64,000 bases of DNA from a virus. The notes beneath the pieces are model-generated. The model had not been told where the DNA came from. It did no database searches and saw only the letters and a list, made by a program, of their open reading frames with translations. Below are positions 6,373 to 61,488 of this stretch, piece after piece (the stretch's first letter is position 1; the number at the start of each line of letters is the position of its first letter). The position numbers were made by a program, and so were the translations under genes. Location: positions 1-64,000 of the IMG/VR virus record IMGVR_UViG_3300044821_000127; one strand, 5' to 3'.

Positions 6373-6593
6373 TGCTCTACGACCACAAAATCCTTCTCTT
6401 CCATCTAAATTCCGCTGTGGCCAGAGAAGTCACCCTGACCTGCGACTCCCACAAGGATGCAAAAAAGCTGTCCTTTGCCTTTCGCCACCTCCGAACTAAC
6501 ATGCTAACGGTAAAGATTTCTGTGAAAGATAATGAAGTAATCCTAACCCCCAGACCATTGGTAAAGTTTGAAGTGAAGGAATCTCAGCCATGA
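6372..6593 (+). CDS. 73-aa hypothetical protein
   Basis: Coupled to both neighbours by overlaps (TAATG at 6372, ATGA at 6590). Alternating hydrophobic pattern suggests a beta-rich small domain. Not recognised. Confidence 0.55.
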   Translation: MLYDHKILLFHLNSAVAREVTLTCDSHKDAKKLSFAFRHLRTNMLTVKISVKDNEVILTPRPLVKFEVKESQP

Positions 6594-7120
6594 CCACCGT
6601 AGATGGATTGTCGATCAAGGACGGTGACGTTTTCCACTGGTCCTATCTTCGCGAAGTGAAACACGGAGACTATTCGTACTGGTGCAAGTCACAGATTGCC
6701 ATCGCCAAAGACGGGTTGCTTGTCGATACTTATTGCGATAGCTCCGCGCACTGGTCTTACGAAGATGCGCCGAAGAAGCTAGATCTCACCTTCCTCGGGA
6801 ACCTCGCCGATTTAGTGAACGTCCCAGAATACAACAGGGAATACTACGCCGACTCCGACATCGTAAATCTTAATCATGCTAACTCTTCGAGGGGCAATTT
6901 CTACATCCGTCGTGGCGCCCAACGCAGCAAGGAGAAGATGCTGGAGACGGCGCATTACAAGATGGAGAAGGCCCAGAAAGAACTTGCTTTGGAATATACC
7001 GCCCGATTTGGCAAAACCCACAAAGTGGATTTGCGATCGGCGCAACAGGCTATCGAACGCTTTGTGGCGACGATCAAGAAGATAGAAGAGGCGTCCGACC
7101 TTGCGGAGATTTATTTATGA
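6590..7120 (+). CDS. Conserved phage protein carrying a 16-codon inserted cassette
   Basis: 176 aa. The first about 125 residues match a phage family I know by pattern (IKDGDVFHWSYL, YWCKSQIAIAKDG, DSDIVNLNHANSSRGNFYIRRGA) with no assigned function. The C-terminus is a coiled coil. Residues 130-145 (KELALEYTARFGKTHK) do not fit this coil and are identical, base for base, to part of the gene at 8475. Without them the coil reads continuously from KMEKAQ to VDLRSAQQAIERF. GC-richer codons than the flanking genes suggest transfer together with the following three genes. Confidence 0.7.
   Translation: MTTVDGLSIKDGDVFHWSYLREVKHGDYSYWCKSQIAIAKDGLLVDTYCDSSAHWSYEDAPKKLDLTFLGNLADLVNVPEYNREYYADSDIVNLNHANSSRGNFYIRRGAQRSKEKMLETAHYKMEKAQKELALEYTARFGKTHKVDLRSAQQAIERFVATIKKIEEASDLAEIYL
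6977..7024 (+). repeat. 48-nt exact duplicate, recipient copy
   Basis: Identical to 8709-8756. It begins and ends on codon borders in both genes and is read in the same frame in both. The sequence fits the family of the gene at 8475, so this is judged the recipient. Confidence 0.9.
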
Positions 7121-8211: not shown

Positions 8212-8478
8212 ATGCACGCCCCGCACCGTTCCGATTACTTAATCTTCCTCCTAGTAATCTGCCTCTTCGGGGCGGGCGCGGCGGCTTTCTACTGTCCAAC
8301 CATCCCCATTCCACCAACCCCAAACATAACCCTAGACCAAACCCCTATGCAGAAATATTGCACCCCAATTTGGCAAAAAACCAAACACACAATTTCTGTC
8401 CTTGGAATAACCTACCAAGTAATGGTGTCCCACAACTGTGGTACGCAATATAAAGGTGAAAAGGTTAGAAAGAAATGA
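8212..8478 (+). CDS. Probable exported or anchored 88-aa protein
   Basis: N-terminal hydrophobic stretch (residues 9-28) after a positively charged start, followed by a proline-rich region and three cysteines that could form a disulphide outside the cytoplasm. Basic C-terminus. Overlaps the next start by four bases. Confidence 0.5.
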   Translation: MHAPHRSDYLIFLLVICLFGAGAAAFYCPTIPIPPTPNITLDQTPMQKYCTPIWQKTKHTISVLGITYQVMVSHNCGTQYKGEKVRKK

Positions 8479-8954
8479 ACATCTTCGTTACCCACCCATC
8501 CCCGTTCCGGTCCGCCATCGCCCTCGATGACCGCCGATTAATCAAAATGATCCTGGAAACCGCTCAACTTCTCAGTACTGCCGTTCAATCCATTCCAGGC
8601 TTTGCCCTCGAAATCTACCCTCTTTACAAACCTACCCATGCCAACCACCCATGTTCCATTTGGGCGCGCAGCAGTCAATTTCGTTTTACCTGGCTTTACA
8701 TACATGGAAAAGAACTTGCTTTGGAATATACCGCCCGATTTGGCAAAACCCACAAAAGCGTTGCCGTTCTTGACGTTTGCTTTACCTACGTTGGTATCTT
8801 CCCATCCAATTCCGACCCTCTCGATTTTGACAACTGCACCCCCTACAAACACCTTCCAGTCTTCGAAGCTTATAAGCAAACCCTTCGTGACAAGTGGCAA
8901 GCTGATGGTGACCGCGCCAAATGGACAAATTCCCAACCCCCGGAATGGAAGTAA
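8475..8954 (+). CDS. Conserved phage protein (MNIFV / KMILE family), donor of the 48-nt copy
   Basis: 159 aa. The layout MNIFV, DDRRLIKMILETAQLLST, YKPTHANHPCSIWAR, EYTARFGKTHKS and C-terminal AKWTNSQPPEW matches a widespread phage family in which HxxKMILE, the THxNHPC segment and GKxHKS are conserved. I recall no proven function; a nucleic-acid glycosylase-like role has been suggested for similar proteins but is not visible here. Residues 79-94 are the source segment duplicated at 6977. Confidence 0.65.
   Translation: MNIFVTHPSPFRSAIALDDRRLIKMILETAQLLSTAVQSIPGFALEIYPLYKPTHANHPCSIWARSSQFRFTWLYIHGKELALEYTARFGKTHKSVAVLDVCFTYVGIFPSNSDPLDFDNCTPYKHLPVFEAYKQTLRDKWQADGDRAKWTNSQPPEWK
8709..8756 (+). 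repeat. 48-nt exact duplicate, probable source copy
   Basis: Identical to 6977-7024. Flanked here by AAAAG on both sides (8708-8712 and 8754-8758). Fits the conserved family pattern of this gene, so it is taken as the original. Confidence 0.9.
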
Positions 8955-9646: not shown

Positions 9647-9664
9647 GCCGTCCTGCGGAGCACC
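9647..9664. repeat. 18-nt direct repeat, copy 2
   Basis: Exact copy of 1016-1033. Its GGAG lies nine bases before the ATG at 9670 and probably serves as ribosome site. The gap 9608-9669 holds no other feature I can support. Confidence 0.8.
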
Positions 9665-12926: not shown

Positions 12927-13858
12927 TGCCCAACATCCTAAAACACCCATCCGCCACCAGTACCAAACTACTATTCATCGGCGAGTCCGGGGCGGGCAAA
13001 ACCGGGGCGCTTTGTTCTCTTGCCGCAGCGGGATACAAACTCCGCATTCTCGACATGGATAACGGCGTAGAGCTAATCAAAGACTACCTTTCCAATCCAA
13101 ACTCCCCCTACGTCAAGCAAAACCCCGATTGTTGGAAAAACGTTGAATACCGCATCATCACCGATGTAACAAAATCCTCCATTGGAAAGGTAATTTGCAC
13201 ACAGGCAACTGCATGGCCCACCATGCTTAGAATGCTTAATGAATGGAAGTATACCTCTGAGGACGGCGAAGAAATCAACTACGGCAAACCCCACGAATGG
13301 GGTAGTGACACCATTCTTGTCATTGACTCCCTTACCTCAGCGGCTTATGCGGCCTTGAATTACCACCTCGCACAAAACGGGGCTTTGTCGGCCGCCCGCA
13401 CCCAAAATGAAGCCCGTAGGGATATTGGCGCCGCACAGGACTACATCCGAGGGCTATTGGCCATATTCAAAGATGCCACAATGTCTTGCAATCTTATCCT
13501 AACCTCCCAAATCACCCAAGTTTCCGAAAGTGGAATGGGACCGCAAAGCGATGAAGTAAAAAAAGAGGGGGAAAGTATTATGGGCTTTCCCGCCGCAATC
13601 GGTCGGGCGCTTTCTCCTCAAATCCCCCGATACTTTAATACCGTCCTCCAAGCTAAGGTTGTCGGCACCAAGCAAATCATTACCACCAAAACCCAAGGGG
13701 ATATTTGCACGAAAAATACCGCCCCGTTAAGGGTAAAACCTCAGTATGATCTTGCCACTGGGTTGGCCGATTACTTTCGGGATGTGCGGGGAAATGGGCC
13801 GTCCGCCGGAGGCCCGGCAACCTCGGCAGCACCGAAAATTCCTCTTAAGGAGGATTAA
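12926..13858 (+). CDS. Sak4-like RecA-fold ATPase
   Basis: 310 aa. Walker A GESGAGKTG (about 18-26), early strand ILDMDNG, Walker B region TILVIDSLTS, and a Q/S-rich sensor LILTSQITQVSESG. The layout matches phage Sak4-type single-strand annealing/recombination ATPases (AAA_24-like). It stands with a nuclease upstream and a probable ssDNA-binding protein downstream, the usual recombination module. The C-terminus is a Gly/Pro/Ala-rich tail ending in an acidic residue pair. Confidence 0.8.
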   Translation: MPNILKHPSATSTKLLFIGESGAGKTGALCSLAAAGYKLRILDMDNGVELIKDYLSNPNSPYVKQNPDCWKNVEYRIITDVTKSSIGKVICTQATAWPTMLRMLNEWKYTSEDGEEINYGKPHEWGSDTILVIDSLTSAAYAALNYHLAQNGALSAARTQNEARRDIGAAQDYIRGLLAIFKDATMSCNLILTSQITQVSESGMGPQSDEVKKEGESIMGFPAAIGRALSPQIPRYFNTVLQAKVVGTKQIITTKTQGDICTKNTAPLRVKPQYDLATGLADYFRDVRGNGPSAGGPATSAAPKIPLKED

Positions 13859-14717: not shown

Positions 14718-15884
14718 ATGCATCAAGTCTCCCGACCCTTCGCCTTTTCTCGCGGCTCAATCCCCAACAAAATCATGTTTGTTGCCGAGGCTTGGGGCAC
14801 CTCCGAGAACAAAATAAAGCGCCCCCTTGTCGGGGCGAGCGGCCGAGAATTCGCCCGTATGCTAATTGAAACGGGCTTTATTTCCACCCCCTATCCCGAC
14901 AAAACCGACAAAGACGGCAACCACTCTTCCCTCACCCCCACCGAACTCGATTCCTGGTGGAACCAAACCTCCATCTTCCAAACCAACGTTCTCCCCTTTC
15001 AGCCTGATGCCAACAACCTAGTAAACATCTGTGGCACCAAGATTCAAGTCGGAGGAAAGAAGTATCTCCATCCTCCCATCCGCACCGGCGCGGCGGGGCC
15101 AAAATATCTCCTCCCTGAATACCTTCCAGAGCTTGATCGTCTTGCTGAGGAAATTAAGCAGGTTAATCCCAACATCATCATCGCCCTGGGCAATGTCGCC
15201 GCCTGGGCGCTCCTTAATCGTACCGGCATTACTTCCATTCGCGGCACCACCGCCGAATGTACTTTGGTTGGCGGATACAAAGTCCTCCCCACCTTTCACC
15301 CCAGCAACATCCTCCGCCAATGGGAAAACCGCACAATAATGCTGGCAGATTTGATAAAAGCCAAACGTGAAAGTGAATTCTCCGAAATCCGCCGCCCGGA
15401 GCGGGAAATACTTGTAGATCCCACCATTACCGAAATCTACAACTACATTCAATTTATGAATTTTACCCAGACCCAACTTCTCTCCATCGACATTGAAACC
15501 AAAAACAAAACCATCACCATGATCTCCTTCTCCTACTCTCCTAAATTCTCCCTCGTAATTCCTTTCCACGCCCCCCACAAAAAGGATGGCAATTATTGGG
15601 AAAGTGCCGAGGATGAAGTAACGGCGTGGGAAATGGTTGGAACCCTTCTTCATTGTGATATTCCCAAGCTCTTCCAGAACGGTTTGTATGATATTACTTA
15701 TTTATTCCGCGCAGGCTTTCGCCCGAAGAATTGTCACCAAGACACCATGCTTCTCCATCATGCCATGCTTCCCGAAATGCAGAAGGGGCTTGGCTTTCTC
15801 GGTTCATTGTATACCTACGAAAGTAGTTGGAAACTCATGCGTCGTGTTCGAGCAAAAGAACAATCGAATAAGAGTGATGAATAA
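14718..15884 (+). CDS. Uracil-DNA-glycosylase plus 3'-5' exonuclease (N-terminal half of a split polymerase)
   Basis: 388 aa. Residues about 15-215 resemble family 4/5 uracil-DNA glycosylases (FVAEAWGTSENK, ASGREFARMLI, TNVLPFQPD, and LPTFHPSNILRQ near the end). Residues about 250-375 are a DnaQ-like exonuclease: LSIDIETKN (Exo I), LFQNGLYDITYLF (Exo II), CHQDTMLLHHAM (Exo III). In related phages this fusion continues into a family A polymerase; here the frame stops and the polymerase domain begins as a new gene at 17333, after six small genes. The SD lies inside the tRNA acceptor stem. TAATG overlap with the next gene. Confidence 0.8.
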   Translation: MHQVSRPFAFSRGSIPNKIMFVAEAWGTSENKIKRPLVGASGREFARMLIETGFISTPYPDKTDKDGNHSSLTPTELDSWWNQTSIFQTNVLPFQPDANNLVNICGTKIQVGGKKYLHPPIRTGAAGPKYLLPEYLPELDRLAEEIKQVNPNIIIALGNVAAWALLNRTGITSIRGTTAECTLVGGYKVLPTFHPSNILRQWENRTIMLADLIKAKRESEFSEIRRPEREILVDPTITEIYNYIQFMNFTQTQLLSIDIETKNKTITMISFSYSPKFSLVIPFHAPHKKDGNYWESAEDEVTAWEMVGTLLHCDIPKLFQNGLYDITYLFRAGFRPKNCHQDTMLLHHAMLPEMQKGLGFLGSLYTYESSWKLMRRVRAKEQSNKSDE

Positions 15885-16201
15885 TGAAAAACTCTTCCGA
15901 AAAACAATCTGGCCGTACGACAAAACAAATATTAAAAGCAAAACAGGGAGCAATATACTTAATTCCTTTTCATCATCACTTATCCTACTTCAAATCACTT
16001 GCACATGCACTTGATAGAAATGACTTAACAATAAAACCATTTATAATTCTTGATGGCTTTGCTGATTTTTTTCGCGGTAGAAAATTCACAGAAATTGTTG
16101 TTGATCATTCCTGTTGGGAGCTTCTCGGAACTCATTCAAAATATCAACTTTGTTTCAACAATTTGCAACAAATAATCAAATATATGAAAATGGACGAATA
16201 A
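15884..16201 (+). CDS. 105-aa hypothetical protein in the polymerase split
   Basis: TAATG overlap with the exonuclease gene. Basic N-terminus, then an alpha/beta sequence (AIYLIPFHHHLSYFKSLAHAL; KFTEIVVDHSC). AT-rich, unlike the polymerase halves. No homing-endonuclease motif. Confidence 0.55.
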   Translation: MKNSSEKQSGRTTKQILKAKQGAIYLIPFHHHLSYFKSLAHALDRNDLTIKPFIILDGFADFFRGRKFTEIVVDHSCWELLGTHSKYQLCFNNLQQIIKYMKMDE

Positions 16202-16202
16202 A

Positions 16203-16403
16203 ATGCCAAACATAACCGACCTCCTTGACGATACCATTTTCTATCGCCAATCCAACGAAGATCTCATAAAAACCGCTTACAAATTTTCCGCCGCCCAGCG
16301 TGACCTTGCGAGTAATTGCAAAGAAGATAGTGAATTTTGGCACCACGTAGCCCTAGCCGATCTTCTTTCCGCCCTCGCCCGCCGTCTTGCAGAAGAAAAA
16401 TGA
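16203..16403 (+). CDS. 66-aa helical hypothetical protein
   Basis: Follows the previous stop by two bases; ends in an ATGA overlap at 16400. All-helical (DLIKTAYKFSAAQRDLASN; HHVALADLLSALARRLAEE). Unknown. Confidence 0.5.
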   Translation: MPNITDLLDDTIFYRQSNEDLIKTAYKFSAAQRDLASNCKEDSEFWHHVALADLLSALARRLAEEK

Positions 16404-16759
16404 ACCTCCGTGACCCCGCTCGCCCTAAAAATACCATCGGCATTCCCCTTCTACTAAACGGCGCTTGTACCGTACCGCCCATTCATTTAGTTTGCCGTGA
16501 AGCGGGGGGTTGGCACATTTGCATCGATGTCCCTATCGCCTTTAACCAATTTGCCCAGCGTTTCAAAGTAGTTGAATCAACCGGGGAATTACAGGAATTC
16601 CTGACCAAATATGTGAACGACCCGGAGAATGAGTTAATAAGCCATTGGAACATGCCGAGGGAATTAAAAGAAGTAGAACTTGTCGCCCCGAAAAAAACTA
16701 AAAGGCTGTATAAGCAATTGGATAAGGAGGCCGAGGCCCCGAAGGATTTGGATTTTTAA
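16400..16759 (+). CDS. 119-aa protein with acidic DLDF tail
   Basis: Start at the ATGA overlap. Compact N-terminal domain (IGIPLLLNGACTVPPIHLV, GGWHICIDVPIAF), a helical middle, then a charged tail ending APKDLDF. The same tail type occurs at 11107. It may be a replication accessory, by place and tail only. Confidence 0.5.
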   Translation: MNLRDPARPKNTIGIPLLLNGACTVPPIHLVCREAGGWHICIDVPIAFNQFAQRFKVVESTGELQEFLTKYVNDPENELISHWNMPRELKEVELVAPKKTKRLYKQLDKEAEAPKDLDF

Positions 16760-16770
16760 GGAGAACCAAA

Positions 16771-16938
16771 ATGACAATGACCGCCATTCACCCCAGCCGT
16801 ATCCTGGACCTAGAAGACGAAGGATATTCCTTTGATGAGGCGCTTGCAATCGCTGAGGATGAACTAAATGAATATGCAGATTTGAAGATTAAGCAAAGGA
16901 AAGAGGATAAGATTTGCGGATGGGAGGGGGAGGAATGA
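16771..16938 (+). CDS. 55-aa hypothetical protein
   Basis: SD AAGGAGAACCAAA. Acidic helices (FDEALAIAEDELNEYADL), with a basic end. Stop overlaps the next ATG inside GAATGA. Confidence 0.5.
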   Translation: MTMTAIHPSRILDLEDEGYSFDEALAIAEDELNEYADLKIKQRKEDKICGWEGEE

Positions 16939-17138
16939 AAAAAAAAAACCTCGCTGTCCAAAGCTCACTCTCGTCCAAAAGAAAGAAGTGTGGTCCTCCA
17001 GCAAAGAAAATGCTGGGGCGGGCCGGGAAACAAAGGGCAACACAACTACGGGGAGGTGGTCGGACGATCAATCTTACGTCTCAAATCCTCCCCGCCGCTT
17101 TATCCCCAATCGTGAAAGAGATAGTGAACCGTTGTTAA
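16935..17138 (+). CDS. 67-aa basic protein beginning with an A11 run; frame uncertain
   Basis: ATG at 16935 followed by eleven A (16938-16948). The annotated frame gives a strongly basic protein. A second frame, open from the A run to 17163, also looks protein-like and ends three bases before the next ATG. Slippage on A11 could let both be made, or the count could be a sequencing error. Confidence 0.4.
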   Translation: MKKKNLAVQSSLSSKRKKCGPPAKKMLGRAGKQRATQLRGGGRTINLTSQILPAALSPIVKEIVNRC

Positions 17139-17165
17139 CTGAGATTTTTAAAAAGGAGAAATAAG

Positions 17166-17333
17166 ATGGAACAAGACGATATGAAAAAACTTACAGAACT
17201 TTTGTTCGAGGCAATAAATGAAGTAAGGAATGATAAAGAAATTAGCAGCAATATCAAAGCTCATGCAATCCACCCATTGGCTAACATAATTCTTGAGATT
17301 GATATTCATCTTACCAAAAAGAATCTTATCTAA
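17166..17333 (+). CDS. 55-aa helical hypothetical protein
   Basis: SD AAGGAGAAATAAG. Helical, AT-rich (KKLTELLFEAINEVRNDKE). TAATG overlap with the polymerase gene, so the two are translationally coupled. Confidence 0.5.
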   Translation: MEQDDMKKLTELLFEAINEVRNDKEISSNIKAHAIHPLANIILEIDIHLTKKNLI

Positions 17334-18868
17334 TGCCCCTGATCCAAACCGCCCTCCTAACCCCAGCCTACAACAACCCCGATGTACATCAAATATACAA
17401 TGGGTTGGACAGCGCACTCACGCTCGAAATTTTCAATAGTATAGCACCCGCCAACCAAGAAAATCCCATCTATGCCTTTGAGCGCGCGCTTCAAGCCCCC
17501 GCTCTTGACATGATGCTACGTGGCATCAAAGTAGATCGCGCCGCCGCCATCGGCGGAATCCAAACCATCAACGCAAAGATCCGCACCCTCGATTCCTTCC
17601 TTCAATCCTGTGCCGAAGTAATCTGGTCCAAGCGCTTCAAAACCAAAGAGGGGGATATTGTTGCCCTAAACCACGCATCCCACGCACAGCTAAAAGACTT
17701 CCTATACAATGCCTTCCACCTCCCTGAGCAATTTAAGATAGAAAAGGGGGTGCGGAAGCTTTCCGTTGACCGCGAATGTTTGGAGAAACTCGATGACTAC
17801 GCTTACGCCCGACCTATTCTCAACTCAATCCTACAGATTAGAGACTTGGTCAAGCAACGAGAAGTTTTCCAAACTGACATTGACAACGACGGACGAATTC
17901 GGACATCTTTTAACATTGCAGGTACAACTACCGGAAGATGGAGTAGTAGTTCCTCCAGTGAAGACACCGGACGAAATCTCCAAAATATTGATGAAGACCT
18001 TAGACATATTTTCATCGCCGACAAAGGATGGAAACTCTGCGGAATAGATCTTGAACAGGCAGAGTCTCGCGAGGTTGGCTGGCTTCAAGGCGTTCTGTTC
18101 GACCGCTGGGAATATCTTGATGTATGTTATAACCAAGACCTTCACAGTTATGTTACCAAACTCGCCTGGCCACATCTGCCCTGGGTTGGTGATAAAAAGA
18201 AAGATAGAGAAGTTGCCGAAACAGTTTTCTATCGTGGACTGCCCTATCGTTTCTACTCAAAAAAACTTGGGCATGGATCAAATTACGTTGGTAAGCCTCC
18301 AACACTAGCTAAGCATTCGAAGTTGCCGATTGCTGCCTGCGAAGCTTTTCAAGAGGCATATTTCTTTGGCTTTCCGGGCTTCCCTCTTTGGCATGAATGG
18401 GTGCATGAACAACTCATGACAACCCAATCCCTGACCACCATATGGGGCAGAACGAGACATTTTTTCGGGCGCCCAGACGACGATAGCACCCTCCGTGAAG
18501 CCGTTGCCTATTCCCCTCAATCATCCACCGCCGATCGAATGAACCTTGCCCTTTGGCGTATCTGGCGCTACATGCCGGAAGTCAAAATCCTAATGCAAGT
18601 ACACGATGCAATTTACTTTCTCATGCCAGATAATGGAATAGAAGAGGAAAAGCGCATTATCTCCAAAGCTCTATCCTTAGTTGATATCCGTCTACAGCAC
18701 ATTGATGGTTCCGGTAAACTTCGCGAACTCATAGTGCCAGGAGAAGCAAAGACAGGTTACAACTGGGGGAACTACGCAACAGAAGAAGATGTAAGAAAGG
18801 GAAAGGCAAGTAAAGTTAACTTAAACGGGCTTAAGAAATTTGATATGAACCTGCTCAAAGCTGCATAA
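17333..18868 (+). CDS. Family A DNA polymerase, polymerase domain only
   Basis: 511 aa. Begins with the junction segment YNGLDSALTLEI that in fused relatives follows the exonuclease domain. Motif A GIDLEQAESR (about 237-246), motif B KKLGHGSNYVGKPPT (about 309-323) and motif C QVHDAI (about 422-427) carry the catalytic residues: two Asp and the Lys/Tyr of the O helix. No exonuclease domain is left in this gene. It needs the protein from 14718 for proofreading, probably as a two-chain enzyme. Start: the ATG in the TAATG overlap. Confidence 0.88.
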   Translation: MPLIQTALLTPAYNNPDVHQIYNGLDSALTLEIFNSIAPANQENPIYAFERALQAPALDMMLRGIKVDRAAAIGGIQTINAKIRTLDSFLQSCAEVIWSKRFKTKEGDIVALNHASHAQLKDFLYNAFHLPEQFKIEKGVRKLSVDRECLEKLDDYAYARPILNSILQIRDLVKQREVFQTDIDNDGRIRTSFNIAGTTTGRWSSSSSSEDTGRNLQNIDEDLRHIFIADKGWKLCGIDLEQAESREVGWLQGVLFDRWEYLDVCYNQDLHSYVTKLAWPHLPWVGDKKKDREVAETVFYRGLPYRFYSKKLGHGSNYVGKPPTLAKHSKLPIAACEAFQEAYFFGFPGFPLWHEWVHEQLMTTQSLTTIWGRTRHFFGRPDDDSTLREAVAYSPQSSTADRMNLALWRIWRYMPEVKILMQVHDAIYFLMPDNGIEEEKRIISKALSLVDIRLQHIDGSGKLRELIVPGEAKTGYNWGNYATEEDVRKGKASKVNLNGLKKFDMNLLKAA

Positions 18869-53191: not shown

Positions 53192-53377
53192 TTACGCACT
53201 TCCCATTGGAATAGCGATCAACAACGAAAAGGCCAAAGCCGCCGTAAACTCATTCGCAAAAGGTCCGCTAACTTCTTTAAATTCCTCAAACTCATTACTA
53301 TAATTAACGTCAGTATGAAGAACTATTGTTCTATCTTGGCCGAGTTCATATCTTACTGAAACTTCTTGAATCATCAT
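53192..53377 (-). CDS. 61-aa hypothetical protein
   Basis: Overlaps the portal stop (ATGATG). Beta-like first half, hydrophobic end (FTAALAFSL). Sits between the portal gene and the strong promoter. Unknown. Confidence 0.5.
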   Translation of the reverse strand: MMIQEVSVRYELGQDRTIVLHTDVNYSNEFEEFKEVSGPFANEFTAALAFSLLIAIPMGSA

Positions 53378-55188
53378 TGCCCGCCTCCCGCGCCACCGAT
53401 TATATCACCTAATGCATTACCTGGGCCTGTGTTGGATTGGCTGAGAGTTTTGGCGGCATTTACTCCCGCCATGGTAGTTGCCATTTGTTGTTGTTGCTGG
53501 GATTGTTTCGCCCGCTCAAGATCATGCTTGGCAATTTCTTGATCGGTGAAGAGAGCCACGGATGGGAAATTGCTGAGTTTGGCGTAAACTTGCATGGCTT
53601 TATCGAGATTGATTACGCGGATTGGGTCGGGAACTCCGGCAGCTTTGGCGGCGGCCGAAAGCGCCCCAGCAGTTTGAAGAGTATCTTTCATTGCCACGGT
53701 TTCGGCGGCAATTTGAGCCAATTTTAGAATTGATTTGTATTGGATTTTGATTGGGGCTTTTCCGAGTGAGGCGGGCTTGGGCGCCAACAAACCTCTCCGT
53801 TCCAGAATTGCAAGGACTCGGCGGATGGCGGGGTCGGCACATTCAGTTTCGAATAACTCAATGAAGGGGCCAAGAACTTGAAGCCGCTCAAGATCCCGTT
53901 TAGTAAGTTCCAACTCGTTGCGAGGCTGAACACCTTCCATGCGAGAGATAGCAAGGAAGACGTCAACAAAAAAGCAGCGTTCAATTCGGGCGGATATTTT
54001 TTCAATGTCGGCCACCATGGGGGCTAGGCTAGTGGCATTTACTTCGAACAAGGGCCAGAAACCCTTTTTGCCACCTTCGGTAGAGACGTAGGTAATTTTA
54101 TCGGGGATGATACTGCTGGGTTCGTTCTTTAGTTCTGGGTTGGCGCCCATCGGGGGCCGGACAAGTTTTTCAATAAATTCGGCCTTACGGCGGGTTTCTT
54201 GCTGGAGTTGCTTAATATCTCCGAGGGCATCCATACCGGGGGAACGGCCGTAAGCATCATTACTTACTGTACTCCACCGCATGGCAATGAATGGGCGCTC
54301 ATGGAAACCCTTACGGGAAAGTTCGGCACTGGTTTTAATTCCCTTAAGCCAATATACTTCTCGAAAGGTGAAGGATTGGGGAATTACGGAAATTTTCTTA
54401 TTTGCCCCCCGGCCATCAAGGGCGAAGTTGGGCTCGATAGCATGGCAAACAACAAATTCTAGTTCAAGGCTGGCGCCGCCCGCCGTCCAAAGTTTTACTA
54501 CTTGCTCTGGGCAATTTTCAAGGGTGACCCAATCTACAATCTGTGCGACGGTAAGGGTGTATTCGCGATAAAGAGTGTCCACACTGAGGCGCCCGCCGAC
54601 AGCAAGATAAAATTCCCCCGCACAGGGAGAATAACACCGAATGATATCTTCATAGTCTTCATAGATAATGACGGGGGCTGTGCCGAAGGTACTCACATCC
54701 TGAAAGCCCTGGGCCAATACGGTGTAGAAGTTACTGCCATGTAGTACCTTATAGACCTTTCCCTGAGTATCCTCTACCCATTCTTTTTCTTCTTGGGAAA
54801 GATCATCATCGTCTTTGTCTTGAATTCCGAGGGCAAACCAAGGACGAGATGGGGAAGTAAGCCCGGTCCACATGCCACTAGCACAGACTTGCATGGCAAG
54901 AGTAGCAGTGCCGTCCATGATCGCTTGGTTGATCGGGCTTCCGCGTGTCATCTTATTAGCCACAACAAACCAATGATAACGACGGGGAAGGATAAATTCC
55001 GCAAGCTGTGCCCAGTAAGCCCACCAGGAATAGCGCCAAGTACGGAGCATTCCTAAGCGGGATTCTAGGTAAGTGAAGATGTCGCCCCAATCTTTTCCTT
55101 GTTTCTCATCTCCCGAAAGGGTCGGGGGCTGTTGGGAAAGTAGCGAAGGCCCGGCAAACTCATATGGGGCGGTGGAATAGTCTTCCAT
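53374..55188 (-). CDS. Portal / head-to-tail connector protein
   Basis: 604 aa. ESRLGMLRTWRYSWWAYWAQLAEFILPRR, MDGTATLAMQVCASGMWTGL, FGTAPVIIYEDYEDI and QPRNELELTKRDLERL are marks of the podoviral head-to-tail connecting protein. The C-terminal 70 residues are Gln/Ala/Gly-rich. One-base overlap with the gene before it. Confidence 0.82.
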   Translation of the reverse strand: MEDYSTAPYEFAGPSLLSQQPPTLSGDEKQGKDWGDIFTYLESRLGMLRTWRYSWWAYWAQLAEFILPRRYHWFVVANKMTRGSPINQAIMDGTATLAMQVCASGMWTGLTSPSRPWFALGIQDKDDDDLSQEEKEWVEDTQGKVYKVLHGSNFYTVLAQGFQDVSTFGTAPVIIYEDYEDIIRCYSPCAGEFYLAVGGRLSVDTLYREYTLTVAQIVDWVTLENCPEQVVKLWTAGGASLELEFVVCHAIEPNFALDGRGANKKISVIPQSFTFREVYWLKGIKTSAELSRKGFHERPFIAMRWSTVSNDAYGRSPGMDALGDIKQLQQETRRKAEFIEKLVRPPMGANPELKNEPSSIIPDKITYVSTEGGKKGFWPLFEVNATSLAPMVADIEKISARIERCFFVDVFLAISRMEGVQPRNELELTKRDLERLQVLGPFIELFETECADPAIRRVLAILERRGLLAPKPASLGKAPIKIQYKSILKLAQIAAETVAMKDTLQTAGALSAAAKAAGVPDPIRVINLDKAMQVYAKLSNFPSVALFTDQEIAKHDLERAKQSQQQQQMATTMAGVNAAKTLSQSNTGPGNALGDIIGGAGGGQ

Positions 55189-55403: not shown

Positions 55404-57887
55404 TTAATTCACCGTATCATTATAATGATAATGACCCTCATTGATTTTAGCGAAGGGGTCGTATTCAGTAGTATGACGAGAGAGCCGATTAACTCGCTGG
55501 GAAATTGTAACTGGTTCGGCAAAGGTTTGGATGAAGGCATCGGCATGATCCGGGGAGTAGCGGAGCTTCTCCTTAATCATTTCCTTTGGTTCGATAAGAA
55601 GAATTCCGTTCTTGATGGTGTAAGTTGTGGCGGTGAGGGCTTCTTCTAGTTCCTTACATTCTGGTAGCGCCCCGCCGGCCTTAATCCATTCTACTGCATC
55701 GTAGTACATTTCGGCGCGCTTATTACCGAACTTACCGGGGTCATGGGCTTTACGGGCGTAACCTACGCCGATCGGCGAGCGCCCCAATACTTTAAGCTGA
55801 TCGATCCAACCGCTGCCAAAACCGCCCGTATCATCAATAAATACCGCATCGGCATTAAGTGCCAGCCATTCCCGGTTAACCCAACTGGCGCCCTCGGTAG
55901 AATTAATATTTCTCATTGTTTTTGGGGGAAAGGCCTGAATTCCGCGCCGTGGGAAAATTACTGAGCTATCAAGGCCATACCGCGCCACATCTACTCCCAG
56001 AATCATCGGAGCTTTGCCGATTTCATATTCCCGATAATATCTATTAGTTGCTTCTCTTATTTCTTCCGGCCCGATAAGGGCGTTAATGCTGGAAAGTGGG
56101 AATTGCCCGAGAATATTAATCATGACCCAAGCATCGTCTCGACCATATCTTGCAATTTCAGTTTTTGCATGATCAAGATTGATACGGGACGAACGCTTGG
56201 GATCATCGGGGTCGCCGGTAATTTCCACTACGTACCAAAGATGGCGTTCGGAAGTACAAGCACGGTAGAGCGGCCCTTCGCGCATGGTGGGGTTTCCGGC
56301 CTGGATTACGTGGCCTTCAATGCAGGAGGTTAGGATTTGTTCGGCGGTAGTAACAATAGCGTCGGGGATACCGCTAGATTCGTCAAGAAGTACCATTACG
56401 TAATCTTCATGAAGCCCGGCAAGGGTATCCGACTGTTGTTGCTTATCGGCCGTCTTACTCCAAGTGCGCGCCGACATCCACCAAATTTCGGGGTGTTCTT
56501 TCTGTTCAATTCTGGTCTTTGTCCAGGTAAACATGTTGGTAAGAAGTTCGGACTTATGTTGCCACTTTGCCATTTCTGACCAGAAGTTATCGGAAAGGTT
56601 GTTGGCGGAAATTGATGTGGCGGCAATACGGGGGAATGGGCGGGTTAGGAGGAAGTTCCAGGCAATCCAAGAAAGACAGGCCGTATTGTGTGTAACAATA
56701 AAATCTCTCGTAAGATAACAGTGTGAAGGATGATCTATCTCAACACACATCGCATCCTCAATTCCATCAGGCTCAATTGAGGCAATAAATCTAGTAAGAT
56801 ATCTTTCAGTACTTTTACTTCTTTTAGGATCAACCCATCGAACTGCCTTATGATTAACTTTAAATGGATTAAATGTCAGCCGAAGTGAAACTCTATAACA
56901 ATCTTTACAAACTATTTTTTCTCCATTCTCATTCCGATACCATCCACTTTTTATCCCAGACTTAATTAAAGCAATTCCACCTAAAGAACGCACTAACCAA
57001 ACTACATCATTAGCTAGAGCTTCAGATGTAGTATCATACTCCATACTGGAATCATCACAAATACATCCATCTGTGTCCATTAGTCCGCAAAGAAGATCTT
57101 GTCTTTGGGAAATAGATGAATGGAGATAAGAATAAGGGATTCGACGTTCATGGCTATTAAGGTTTAGTATTGGACTATTTTTAAAAATATCTGACATACC
57201 TAAAAGGTAAACATTTGTAGTTCTTGTCTCAGACTCATGTCTTGTAACTTTATACCCTCTTCGCACAATTTCTTTTTCAATTTCATCATATTCTTGAGTA
57301 TATTTCGGCTGACCTTTAGTTCCGTCTCCAAGCCAAACTCCCATAAGATATGGATCAATTATTAAGTTAGCATTAGGATATTGAACTGCTCCTTGTTGCG
57401 GAATAATAAATTGCTTCTGCCGCCACTTTCCATTAGGAATAGTTACCCCGCGATTAATGATTTCTTGTGTTGATAAAACTGCCCATCCAAGATTTTTTCT
57501 TCTTTCAGTTCTTCCTTGAACTTTCCAAAGATGTTCCGCCCCAACTCTTGCAAATGAACCATCATCAAATGTAACTTTATAAATTTGTTTTTGTAAATGT
57601 TTGTAAATACCTACTATTTTTGTGTAACTTCCATCCTCAGCAAAAAGATAATCACCAAGATAAAGATCGCCCCATCGTTTTGTTCCAACTGGAGTTTCAA
57701 CAATTGTTGACATTGCCTCCATTTTTCCCGGCCCCTTACAGGCCTTTGCGGCAATACGAAGTTTATGCGGATATGCCTCTAGCATTTCCTCTTGCCAAGG
57801 ATCGGGCTCAACGCCGAAAAGCTCCCGAACCATCTTAGCTGGGTGCTCCCTCCATTCAGTTACTTTTGAAATAGCAAGTTCACTCAT
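55404..57887 (-). CDS. Terminase large subunit containing an intein
   Basis: 827 aa. Extein residues: WQEEML then ACKGPGK (Walker A) cut after Lys55 and resumed by TACLSWIAW; Walker B VMVLLDESSG; nuclease residues in MILGVDVARYG, VFIDDTGG and DHADAFIQTF. After removal of the 346-aa intein the protein would be 481 aa, a normal TerL size. It packages DNA and cuts it. Starts in an ATGA overlap with the small subunit gene. Confidence 0.88.
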   Translation of the reverse strand: MSELAISKVTEWREHPAKMVRELFGVEPDPWQEEMLEAYPHKLRIAAKACKGPGKMEAMSTIVETPVGTKRWGDLYLGDYLFAEDGSYTKIVGIYKHLQKQIYKVTFDDGSFARVGAEHLWKVQGRTERRKNLGWAVLSTQEIINRGVTIPNGKWRQKQFIIPQQGAVQYPNANLIIDPYLMGVWLGDGTKGQPKYTQEYDEIEKEIVRRGYKVTRHESETRTTNVYLLGMSDIFKNSPILNLNSHERRIPYSYLHSSISQRQDLLCGLMDTDGCICDDSSMEYDTTSEALANDVVWLVRSLGGIALIKSGIKSGWYRNENGEKIVCKDCYRVSLRLTFNPFKVNHKAVRWVDPKRSKSTERYLTRFIASIEPDGIEDAMCVEIDHPSHCYLTRDFIVTHNTACLSWIAWNFLLTRPFPRIAATSISANNLSDNFWSEMAKWQHKSELLTNMFTWTKTRIEQKEHPEIWWMSARTWSKTADKQQQSDTLAGLHEDYVMVLLDESSGIPDAIVTTAEQILTSCIEGHVIQAGNPTMREGPLYRACTSERHLWYVVEITGDPDDPKRSSRINLDHAKTEIARYGRDDAWVMINILGQFPLSSINALIGPEEIREATNRYYREYEIGKAPMILGVDVARYGLDSSVIFPRRGIQAFPPKTMRNINSTEGASWVNREWLALNADAVFIDDTGGFGSGWIDQLKVLGRSPIGVGYARKAHDPGKFGNKRAEMYYDAVEWIKAGGALPECKELEEALTATTYTIKNGILLIEPKEMIKEKLRYSPDHADAFIQTFAEPVTISQRVNRLSRHTTEYDPFAKINEGHYHYNDTVN
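56685..57722 (-). mobile_element. Class 3 intein with LAGLIDADG endonuclease in the TerL P-loop
   Basis: Residues 56-401 of the terminase. Starts with Met where most inteins have Cys/Ser, followed by STIVETPVGT and DLYLGDYLF (block A). Block B GAEHLWKV has Trp121, block F SHCYL has Cys390, and the C-terminus IVTHN-T has Thr399 before His-Asn: the Trp-Cys-Thr triad of class 3 inteins. Endonuclease motifs YLMGVWLGDGT and LLCGLMDTDG are both intact. Insertion in the ATP-binding loop is a favoured intein site. Confidence 0.8.
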
Positions 57888-58483
57888 TCGGCTGCATTTT
57901 CTATAGTTTTTGGCGGATTGGCCTTTTTAATGCTTTCTTCTACGATATTTGCCCAAGAAAGGGTGACATTTTGGTCAATCTTTGTCGTATTTTTCTTCGG
58001 CGCAATGCTACGATCGCCGGTTTCGGAAATAATCTCATTCAATTCCCTTACTGAAATGCCCTCTGGGTTTTCTTCCAACCTTTCTTGTAAAATTTCAGTA
58101 GCTGTGATACAAAGCGCCGCAAGTCTTTCTTGTGCATCGACAAAAACTGCGTCCTTTTGATTCTTATAATTCGCCACAAGTTCCAAAAACCCCGGATCTT
58201 GCATGAAGGTGGAAATTCTGCTTTGTGAATATCCGGTAATAAGACTTGCATCTACTTGCTTCATGCCGGAAGCAATAAGTTGTGCTAACCGGTGATGGGT
58301 ACTGCGCAACTTTTGTGTCATTAGTGGCTTGGAATTTACTGAGGATGGGTGAATTAGTTCGGAAAGATCGGCCTCGGTGAGTTCTCTGGGCGTGCCGATA
58401 GTAAGAGGAGCGGACGGCCGGCGCCCGCCGCGAGCCGGGGAAATTTTTGCAGACATGATTGCGAGAAGTTCTGAATCGTCCAT
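57884..58483 (-). CDS. Terminase small subunit-like DNA-binding protein
   Basis: 199 aa from the ATG at 58483. The HTH region ASGMKQVDASLITGYSQSRIS (about residues 75-95) is followed by helices for oligomerisation (AQERLAALCITATEILQERL) and a C-terminal tail. It precedes TerL. A 52-nt piece of the HTH coding region (58226-58277) is copied, permuted, at 60891. No SD is visible; translation may be leaderless from the promoter noted upstream. Confidence 0.65.
   Translation of the reverse strand: MDDSELLAIMSAKISPARGGRRPSAPLTIGTPRELTEADLSELIHPSSVNSKPLMTQKLRSTHHRLAQLIASGMKQVDASLITGYSQSRISTFMQDPGFLELVANYKNQKDAVFVDAQERLAALCITATEILQERLEENPEGISVRELNEIISETGDRSIAPKKNTTKIDQNVTLSWANIVEESIKKANPPKTIENAAE
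58226..58277. repeat. Source of the 52-nt permuted copy
   Basis: Segment A (58226-58241) followed by segment B (58242-58277). At 60891-60942 the order is B then A, both exact. Confidence 0.9.
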
Positions 58484-58518: not shown

Positions 58519-59220
58519 CGGAATGTGTGGGACAGAGGTGAAAAATCCATGGGTTGTAGTGGGCGTAAGTGGGCCTCACGATGGATTTTAGGCCAGAAAA
58601 TTCCCCCACGCAAACTTCTACCCCATGCCGCTCAGTAGTTCAAATTTTGGCGGCCCACTCATCTTTTTAATTTTTCTAAAAAATTTCCGAAAAAGAAAAA
58701 GAAAGGCCCATTACCTTTGAAAATAGCATTGACATGAGAGGATGGAGATACGTACCCCCATACCCGTACCCCCATCACAGCGAAGTCGGTTTTGGGCCAA
58801 GCTGTAGGAAAAGGAATTCCTTACTTGCGTTGAGAAAAAAGATTGGGAGGAATGGTCGGGCGGGCGAGTGTTGGTGGTTGGGAGGGTGAGGATAGTAGTT
58901 TGGGCGTGGTCGGGCGTCGGATGGTGTTGACAAGGGAATGTAGTAAATTCAATAACTTATCCAAATAGTTTCCAATTGAGCACATTGCTAGAAGTGGTTG
59001 ATATTATTGGGGAATATTTTTAATTTATCGGGCGATCATTCTGGAGTAAACGGGGTGGCCGGTAGGTCTATGGCCCTGGGGGAGTAATTGGCCTGTACGG
59101 GGCTAGAAACGCGATTGCGGGGCTATTGGTTTTGGGCGGAATGGAGTTGTGTGAGGCTAAAGGGCCTCCGGCGGACGGCGGGAGATTTACTGGAAATTTG
59201 TGTGAATTACTGAGAAAAGA
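58519..59220. other. 700-base gap without supported genes
   Basis: Contains a tandem GTACCCCCATACCC / GTACCCCCAT (about 58752-58775), a 12-bp palindrome AAGGAATTCCTT (58811-58822) and a TTGACA at about 58729 without a -10. G-rich stretches (GGTCGGGCGGGCGAG) follow. It could hold operators or an origin; I see no gene. Confidence 0.4.
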
Positions 59221-59955: not shown

Positions 59956-60801
59956 ATGGCAATAACCAAGGAAATGTTTTTTCAGTGCCTTGAAGAAGGT
60001 AAATACGCAAGTGATTTACTTAAGATGATTATTGATGAAACTAGGGAAATGATTTTGAAAGAAGTGGAATTAGATGAATGGCAGGCTTTCGGCAATTGGA
60101 TTGTTGCACAAAAGCCGGCCGAAATGACAGAAAGCAAAATTAGATACGAGTTAATGAAAAGACGTTGGAAGACATTACAAGGGCAACAGCATTTACAAGT
60201 GGTGCTTCGGCGGGTTAAGACAGAAAGAAAGATTGAAGCAAAAATAGAAAATACTTTCTTAATAAGAGAACAAATGGATAGAATGGCCAATAAAAGGGGA
60301 ATGGAAAGATACGATGATTTGAGTGAAGAAGAAAAAGATAAGATAGCAAGCACAATTGCTTTAGGCGACTACACGGTTGATTACAAAGCGGAATTAATTT
60401 TAAGAATGATCAGAAAAATTATAAGGGAAAAGGATGGAAGCGATCAGGTTACAGTATGCCCCAATGAAGAAAAGATTAACTTAAATGAGCTAACTATGGA
60501 ATTGTATCAGTCAAAAACTGAACGAGAAGAAATTATCAACGGGGAAGTCACTTATGACAATGAGGAACTAGAGGATAAAGAGTTTTGGAAACGTAAAGCC
60601 GATGCAGAAAAACTTATGGAAGCATGGGCATTTACTGATACGGATTATAGGTATTCATCAATTTATCAAAGAAAGGATAATAATCTTTGGTATGTTGAGG
60701 GAACACAAAATGAAGAGCCTGTCGGAATTTTGACATATAGAAAAATCAGAGAACATCCAAAACATGTTAGACAAAAAGGTGGAAGTACACGGGGAAGCTG
60801 A
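59956..60801 (+). CDS. 281-aa hypothetical protein
   Basis: SD AGGAGAATAAA. Charged helical protein, many Arg/Lys/Glu; KRRWKTLQGQQHLQVVLRRVK suggests nucleic-acid contact but no motif is clear. AT-rich, plus strand, with repeat sites upstream. Its last about 20 codons abut a GC-rich foreign block, so the C-terminus may be altered by the joint. Confidence 0.55.
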   Translation: MAITKEMFFQCLEEGKYASDLLKMIIDETREMILKEVELDEWQAFGNWIVAQKPAEMTESKIRYELMKRRWKTLQGQQHLQVVLRRVKTERKIEAKIENTFLIREQMDRMANKRGMERYDDLSEEEKDKIASTIALGDYTVDYKAELILRMIRKIIREKDGSDQVTVCPNEEKINLNELTMELYQSKTEREEIINGEVTYDNEELEDKEFWKRKADAEKLMEAWAFTDTDYRYSSIYQRKDNNLWYVEGTQNEEPVGILTYRKIREHPKHVRQKGGSTRGS

Positions 60802-61035
60802 CCGACGCCCTGGTCACGCTTGCCCGGCTGGAAAAGTTCATCAGCGGCAACTATGACGCCCACGTTGCGGTCCGCTCCGGCGCTGGCTACAAGACTTGCA
60901 TCTACTTGCTTCATGCCGGAAGCAATGTGAATATCCGGTAATTACATCGAGCGCGCCCCTGACGATTTCTGGATCGAGCAGGGCGACGACTTCGTGCCGA
61001 ACCTCGCGGCCTATCCCGATGTGATCGCGTACTGA
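60786..61035 (+). pseudogene. GC-rich gene fragment broken by the 52-nt insert
   Basis: Reading frame LTDALVTLARLEKFISGNYD ... RSGAGY up to 60890, then 52 foreign bases, then YIERAPDDFWIEQGDD ... PDVIAY to the TGA at 61033-61035. Deleting the 52 bases joins the two parts in frame. Composition and codon use differ from the phage genes around it, and no start is seen upstream. The following gene starts three bases after the stop, as in an operon. Confidence 0.6.
60891..60942. repeat. 52-nt permuted copy of terminase small-subunit sequence
   Basis: Exact copy of 58242-58277 (36 nt) followed by exact copy of 58226-58241 (16 nt), i.e. the source order is reversed, as from a circle. Flanked on both sides by TAC, possibly a 3-bp target duplication. 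Confidence 0.9.
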
Positions 61036-61038
61036 GCG

Positions 61039-61488
61039 ATGACCACTCTCTTCGATCTTCTGGCTCAGGCGTGCGGCCTCTCGCAAAGGGAGGCCGCAGA
61101 CTTTCTCCGGGTCCGGCTCGACACCATCAAATCCTGGGCCTCCGGTCGGCGTCAGGCGCCGCAGGACGCGCTGGCGGAACTGGCGACGCTGGCCAATCGG
61201 ATCGACACGGCCGCCGCCGAAGCGCTGGCGCAGATCGAAAGAATGGCCGCTCAGCATGGTATTCCGTCCGAGATCGACCTGGGTGTCGCCGCCGACGATG
61301 CCGAAGCCCAAAGCATCGGCTGGCCGTGCGTCGGCGCCCAATGCGCAAGTCTCGGCTTGGTCGTGGCGCGCGGCACGAAGCGCGGGTATCGTTTCCGCGT
61401 GTCGCCGCGCGGATCGACCGTCGCCACGGCTGCCGCGCTCTATTCCGGCGATTGGTCACACCCTACATCTAGTGGGTGTGGGTGCTAA
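61039..61488 (+). CDS. HTH protein in a foreign GC-rich block
   Basis: 149 aa. LSQREAADFLRVRLDTIKSWASGRRQAP is an XRE/YdiL-like helix-turn-helix. The rest is Ala-rich; the last dozen codons (SHPTSSGCGC) look like read-through past a recombination joint near 61456. High GC suggests origin from a proteobacterial chromosome or prophage. No obvious SD. Confidence 0.55.
   Translation: MTTLFDLLAQACGLSQREAADFLRVRLDTIKSWASGRRQAPQDALAELATLANRIDTAAAEALAQIERMAAQHGIPSEIDLGVAADDAEAQSIGWPCVGAQCASLGLVVARGTKRGYRFRVSPRGSTVATAAALYSGDWSHPTSSGCGC

Follow-up and report, generated by a model that had tools for sequence, protein, structure and literature searches.

A perfect, circularly permuted 52-nt copy of terminase-region DNA in a GC-rich frame of a tailed phage genome

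A tailed phage genome carries, at positions 60891-60942 (+ strand) of the window (the whole analyzed stretch, which covers the first 64,000 nt of a virus record of 67,360 bases), a perfect, circularly permuted copy of a 52-nt block located at 58225-58276 (52/52 positions in an exact-repeat comparison). The first 36 nt of the insert (60891-60926) are identical to 58241-58276 (36/36), and the remaining 16 nt (60927-60942), along with the T at 60926 that is common to both parts, reproduce 58224-58240 (60926-60942; 17/17). The two parts are immediate neighbours in the donor and appear in the copy in swapped order, with no gap or overlap and nothing doubled. Direct repeats that arose by chance in 30 first-order Markov simulations of the genome reached at most 14-17 nt, so that matches of 36 and 17 nt exclude chance. 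Thus, the original prediction of a 36-nt plus 16-nt terminase copy in swapped order is borne out by exact matches, with the correction that the source block, placed there at 58226-58277, was off by one. We estimate at about 0.5 the probability that this segment is a scar of joining, left in vivo when a short fragment of the phage's own DNA was captured non-homologously. The insert is most likely such a joining scar rather than a working element, and no function is indicated.

The donor block (- strand) lies within a small-terminase-like gene (57884-58483, - strand), which is located directly upstream of the large terminase gene (55404-57887, - strand), i.e., where a small terminase would be expected, and which shows weak family matches. 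Judging from its translation, the block probably codes for a helix-turn-helix-like stretch, IASGMKQVDASLITGYS.

The insert splits a GC-rich small ORF remnant without a start codon (60783-61035, + strand; stop codon at 61033-61035) that was delineated from open frames and from GC content by codon position. The only fully open frame of the left flank is KYTGKLTDALVTLARLEKFISGNYDAHVAVRSGAGY, which reads ...KLTDALVTLARLEKFISGNYDAHVAVRSGAGY just before the insert, and the only fully open frame of the right flank is YIERAPDDFWIEQGDDFVPNLAAYPDVIAY, followed by the stop codon. The GC content by codon position is 0.63/0.46/0.86 on the left and 0.65/0.35/0.84 on the right, in contrast to 0.45/0.29/0.32 in the upstream AT-rich gene. 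When exactly 52 nt are removed, the two flanks fuse in one frame of like codon composition, in agreement with the earlier proposal of a GC-rich frame that is broken by the insert and rejoined by its deletion. Therefore, no target bases were demonstrably lost at this site, and frame continuity suggests a pure insertion into a presumed empty site that composition would place at 60890/60943. Given that no in-frame ATG, GTG or TTG is present between the upstream stop codon (60768-60770) and the insert, the broken gene was truncated at the 5' end independently of the insert and was already decaying; the insert would have been tolerated because it hit a gene already damaged.

The insert is bordered by TAC on both sides (GGCTAC[52]TACATC), as previously noticed, but the interpretation of this triplet as a target duplication fares less well: with no homologue for comparison, a 3-nt duplication is indistinguishable from a native Tyr-Tyr pair, and there is no such duplication at the second patch described below. 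An uninterrupted version of the broken frame was sought in phages, plasmids, viral contigs and genomes, and no usable homologue emerged. The only genome match (L032) falls within a 415-aa ORF of an Eremiobacterota MAG and seems fortuitous, and a match in the relative phage G007 (YYIER, E 0.11) sits in an unrelated long frame.

The GC-rich tract (~60783-61455) is shared by the broken ORF and a gene for a helix-turn-helix protein (61039-61488, + strand; assigned from phrog_955, HTH_3 and its neighbours) that begins three bases past the stop codon of the broken ORF. This protein matches that of Bradyrhizobium phage ppBeUSDA76-1 at 45% and that of L057 at 60%, and its relatives are found in alphaproteobacterial phages and plasmids. 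The entire tract has the appearance of a module of two genes acquired from an alphaproteobacterial phage or host, and the left junction seems to have cost the first of these genes its start. Of the five related viral loci, four have a small ORF immediately before the helix-turn-helix gene; these ORFs (in L057, L058, L060 and L061) were considered as homologues of the broken ORF and rejected, being unrelated to it in sequence.

A companion patch of 48 nt (6977-7024, + strand; within ORF 6590-7120) is identical at 48/48 positions to 8709-8756 (+ strand), a segment of a pyrimidine-dimer-glycosylase-like gene (8475-8954; Pyr_excise, E 1.2e-8; phrog_624, E 1.1e-38), and codes for KELALEYTARFGKTHK in the same reading phase in donor and target. 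The closest homologue of the target ORF, from the phage G007, shows 50% identity up to the patch site; when the 16 codons are removed, the alignment becomes gap-free around the site and its score rises from 289 to 312. Therefore, the copy at 6977-7024 is the derived one and represents an insertion with no loss of target bases. Three more distant homologues (L063, L065 and L066) are consistent with the absence of the patch, but they align poorly in this region. The view of this case as a second short resident patch is thereby upheld, whereas the accompanying description of the targets as GC-rich acquired genes is supported for the 52-nt target only: the ORF that received the 48-nt patch has a GC content of 50%, is matched by a homologue from a relative phage within the family, and may be an old family gene. 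Given that both copies are exact, both insertions are recent.

A functional or mobile mini-element, be it a recombination site, an integrated minicircle or a binding site for a packaging protein, would accommodate the location of the donor in the helix-turn-helix coding region of the small-terminase-like gene, the exact permutation and the possible 3-nt TAC duplication. Nevertheless, we consider an element of this kind very improbable: the ends of the 52-nt segment lack terminal inverted repeats or any other transposon-like features, the hairpin of the donor or the insert is no better than in shuffled sequences (z -1.2 to -1.3), searches revealed no further copies of the 52-nt block, and no reverse transcriptase was found in the genome. 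In addition, TAC flanks one site only, and the 48-nt and 52-nt patches have no sequence in common.

In the entire 67-kb genome, these two pairs are the only direct or inverted repeats of at least 20 nt that are not of low complexity, which is the outcome of the whole-contig check for other short copies that had been advised. Once terminal and low-complexity repeats were set aside, no repeat pair of at least 24 nt with unrelated flanks was detected in the relatives (four long records along with several partial records, which carry tandem arrays, terminal repeats and collagen-like repeats), and no such pair was found in ~141 kb from two unrelated control phages. The presence of two perfect patches in one assembly and of none in the relatives counts against capture of self-derived fragments, since it fits a dataset-specific artefact as well. 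An artefact of library preparation, amplification or assembly, whereby chimeric molecules made the patches and the assembler kept them, is unlikely but has an appreciable chance of being the correct explanation: the phage is represented by a single metagenomic record, a second assembly was not found in our searches, and low local coverage would let rare chimeras win. However, the gene on either side of each patch runs on past it with nothing missing, unlike in a simple ligation chimera or misjoin; the junction k-mers must have been present in the reads; and the 48-nt patch keeps the frame in phase. Moreover, from the way assemblers work, de Bruijn repeat errors would be expected to misjoin long contigs rather than to place short inserts between adjacent bases.

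Perfect patches of 38 and 35 nt are also present in G007 (L039; 53694/54868 and 53941/55121), between paralogous genes that are ~55% identical around them, and resemble short-tract gene conversion between homologous positions. They are similar to the patches described here in being short, perfect and contained in one genome of the same phage family, but they occupy aligned positions of paralogues, whereas the 52-nt and 48-nt patches sit at unrelated sites.

In the case of non-homologous capture, a ~50-nt piece of the phage's own DNA would be trapped at a break or gap elsewhere in the same genome. The 52-nt piece would first have been closed into a circle, or would have been present as a head-to-tail repeat, and would then have been reopened, prior to its insertion, at 58240/58241; the 48-nt patch would result from the same kind of event with no permutation, and would have survived because the target frame stayed open. 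We infer the fragment intermediate, the break at the target and the in-vivo origin alike. That the donor parts abut exactly is expected for a unit-length circle or repeat and not for free template jumps. Of the circular intermediate that was originally proposed, what stands is the exact permutation, which suggests a circular or head-to-tail 52-nt unit; the intermediate itself is putative. The genome codes for a Sak4-like single-strand annealing protein, a PD-(D/E)XK nuclease and a helicase, which makes short single-stranded fragments and their handling plausible. Weighing against capture, neither Ku nor an ATP-dependent ligase, both of which Ku/LigD end joining with filler DNA would use, was found in the phage record, and the joining enzymes would thus have to come from the host. 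Also against it, there is no microhomology at the outer junctions, with an extended match score of 0 at all four joints, a score that 66% of random pairs likewise obtain in this test.

Replicative template switching would account for the same sequence by copying of 58241-58276, slippage back by 52 nt, copying of 58225-58240 and return to the target. This route does not need a circle, and the return to the exact departure point would be natural for a paused fork. A pause site could be marked by AAT^AAG hexamers, which occur at 58238-58243 and 58274-58279 and coincide, at the same place in the hexamer, with two of the three donor breakpoints; the chance of this coincidence, which was spotted after the fact, is ~0.0015 for a random reopening point, and an end hexamer recurs somewhere inside ~5% of 52-mers. 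Nevertheless, the microhomology at the switch points amounts to only 0-1 nt and the second tract must end by chance exactly where the first began, and we regard template switching as improbable.

A broader version of the capture hypothesis, namely that this phage lineage re-inserts its own fragments of ~35-55 nt at unrelated sites at a measurable rate, sometimes via tiny circles and perhaps through the Sak4-like protein and the nuclease, seems to us quite doubtful. The Sak4-like protein was also considered as a family-wide cause and rejected: it was found in this genome (G000) only and not in five relatives, so that the conversion-like patches of G007 give that cause no support.

Several known processes are similar to non-homologous capture of self-derived fragments in some respects. 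In bacteria, short-patch illegitimate recombination (SPDIR) reportedly exchanges resident bases at positions of microhomology. A defining feature of SPDIR is microhomology at its joints, and the process also depends on single-stranded DNA levels (recombination and nuclease mutants). SPDIR puts short intragenomic segments at unrelated sites (PMC7192050), and the segments described here, of 52 and 48 nt, likewise have their donors in the same genome. The differences are that the present junctions lack homology, that the genome is that of a phage, that no loss of target bases is apparent, and that one of the patches is circularly permuted; with respect to replacement of resident bases, the 48-nt site is a pure insertion by the G007 alignment, and the 52-nt site is judged by frame continuity rather than against a homologue. 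Templated or filler insertions (MMBIR/FoSTeS and end joining) are described mainly in eukaryotes. They similarly bring tens of nucleotides, sometimes scrambled, from elsewhere to a break, but in the present case the donor parts abut exactly, the phage record yielded no Ku or ATP-dependent ligase, and the 0-1 nt of microhomology falls short of the few nucleotides seen at MMBIR/FoSTeS switch points. No phage cases of short self-DNA insertion at non-homologous sites were found in the literature searched. If the patches are real, they would imply that short stretches of a phage genome become inserted elsewhere in it where no homology exists, and that one of these stretches can lengthen a gene by 16 codons while leaving it intact; the exact permutation would then argue for tiny circles or repeats of unit length as the intermediate form, which is a testable claim. 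If artefactual, they would serve as a warning on short exact repeats scattered over phage contigs from metagenomes.

With regard to the genome as a whole, the portal protein (53374-55188; Head-tail_con) is similar to those of epsilon15 and phiV10, and relatives in viral contigs show 52-83% portal identity; the GC content is 47.5%, compared with 53-67% in the longer relatives. The two ends of the record (1-93 and 67273-67360) consist of a CAG-rich, low-complexity TAAGCAGCAGC repeat, which codes for an Ala/Tyr-rich tract on the minus strand, and overlap by ~88 nt, so that the genome is probably near complete and either circular or terminally redundant. Exactly at its Walker A motif (GPGK/T), the large terminase contains an intein-like insert with matches to LAGLIDADG homing endonucleases. 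L022, L024 and, apparently, L004 align across this insert without interruption, and it is absent from L012, L013, L014, L026, L021 and L027-L029. The replication block includes a UvrD-like helicase, the PD-(D/E)XK nuclease, the Sak4-like protein, a family A DNA polymerase and a primase/helicase. The polymerase (14718-18868, + strand) seems to be split into a UDG-plus-polymerase N-terminal part (14718-15884) and a polymerase domain (17333-18868), which match adjacent stretches of phrog_17 (553-800 and 809-1239, respectively) and are separated by ~1.45 kb containing small ORFs without family matches. Finally, an 18-nt motif, GCCGTCCNNCGGAGNNCC, occurs in four exact copies (1016-1033, 9647-9664 and 13798-13815 on the + strand, and 59162-59179 on the - strand), with 0.31 matches expected even when up to two mismatches are allowed, and is possibly a regulatory or terminator-like element.
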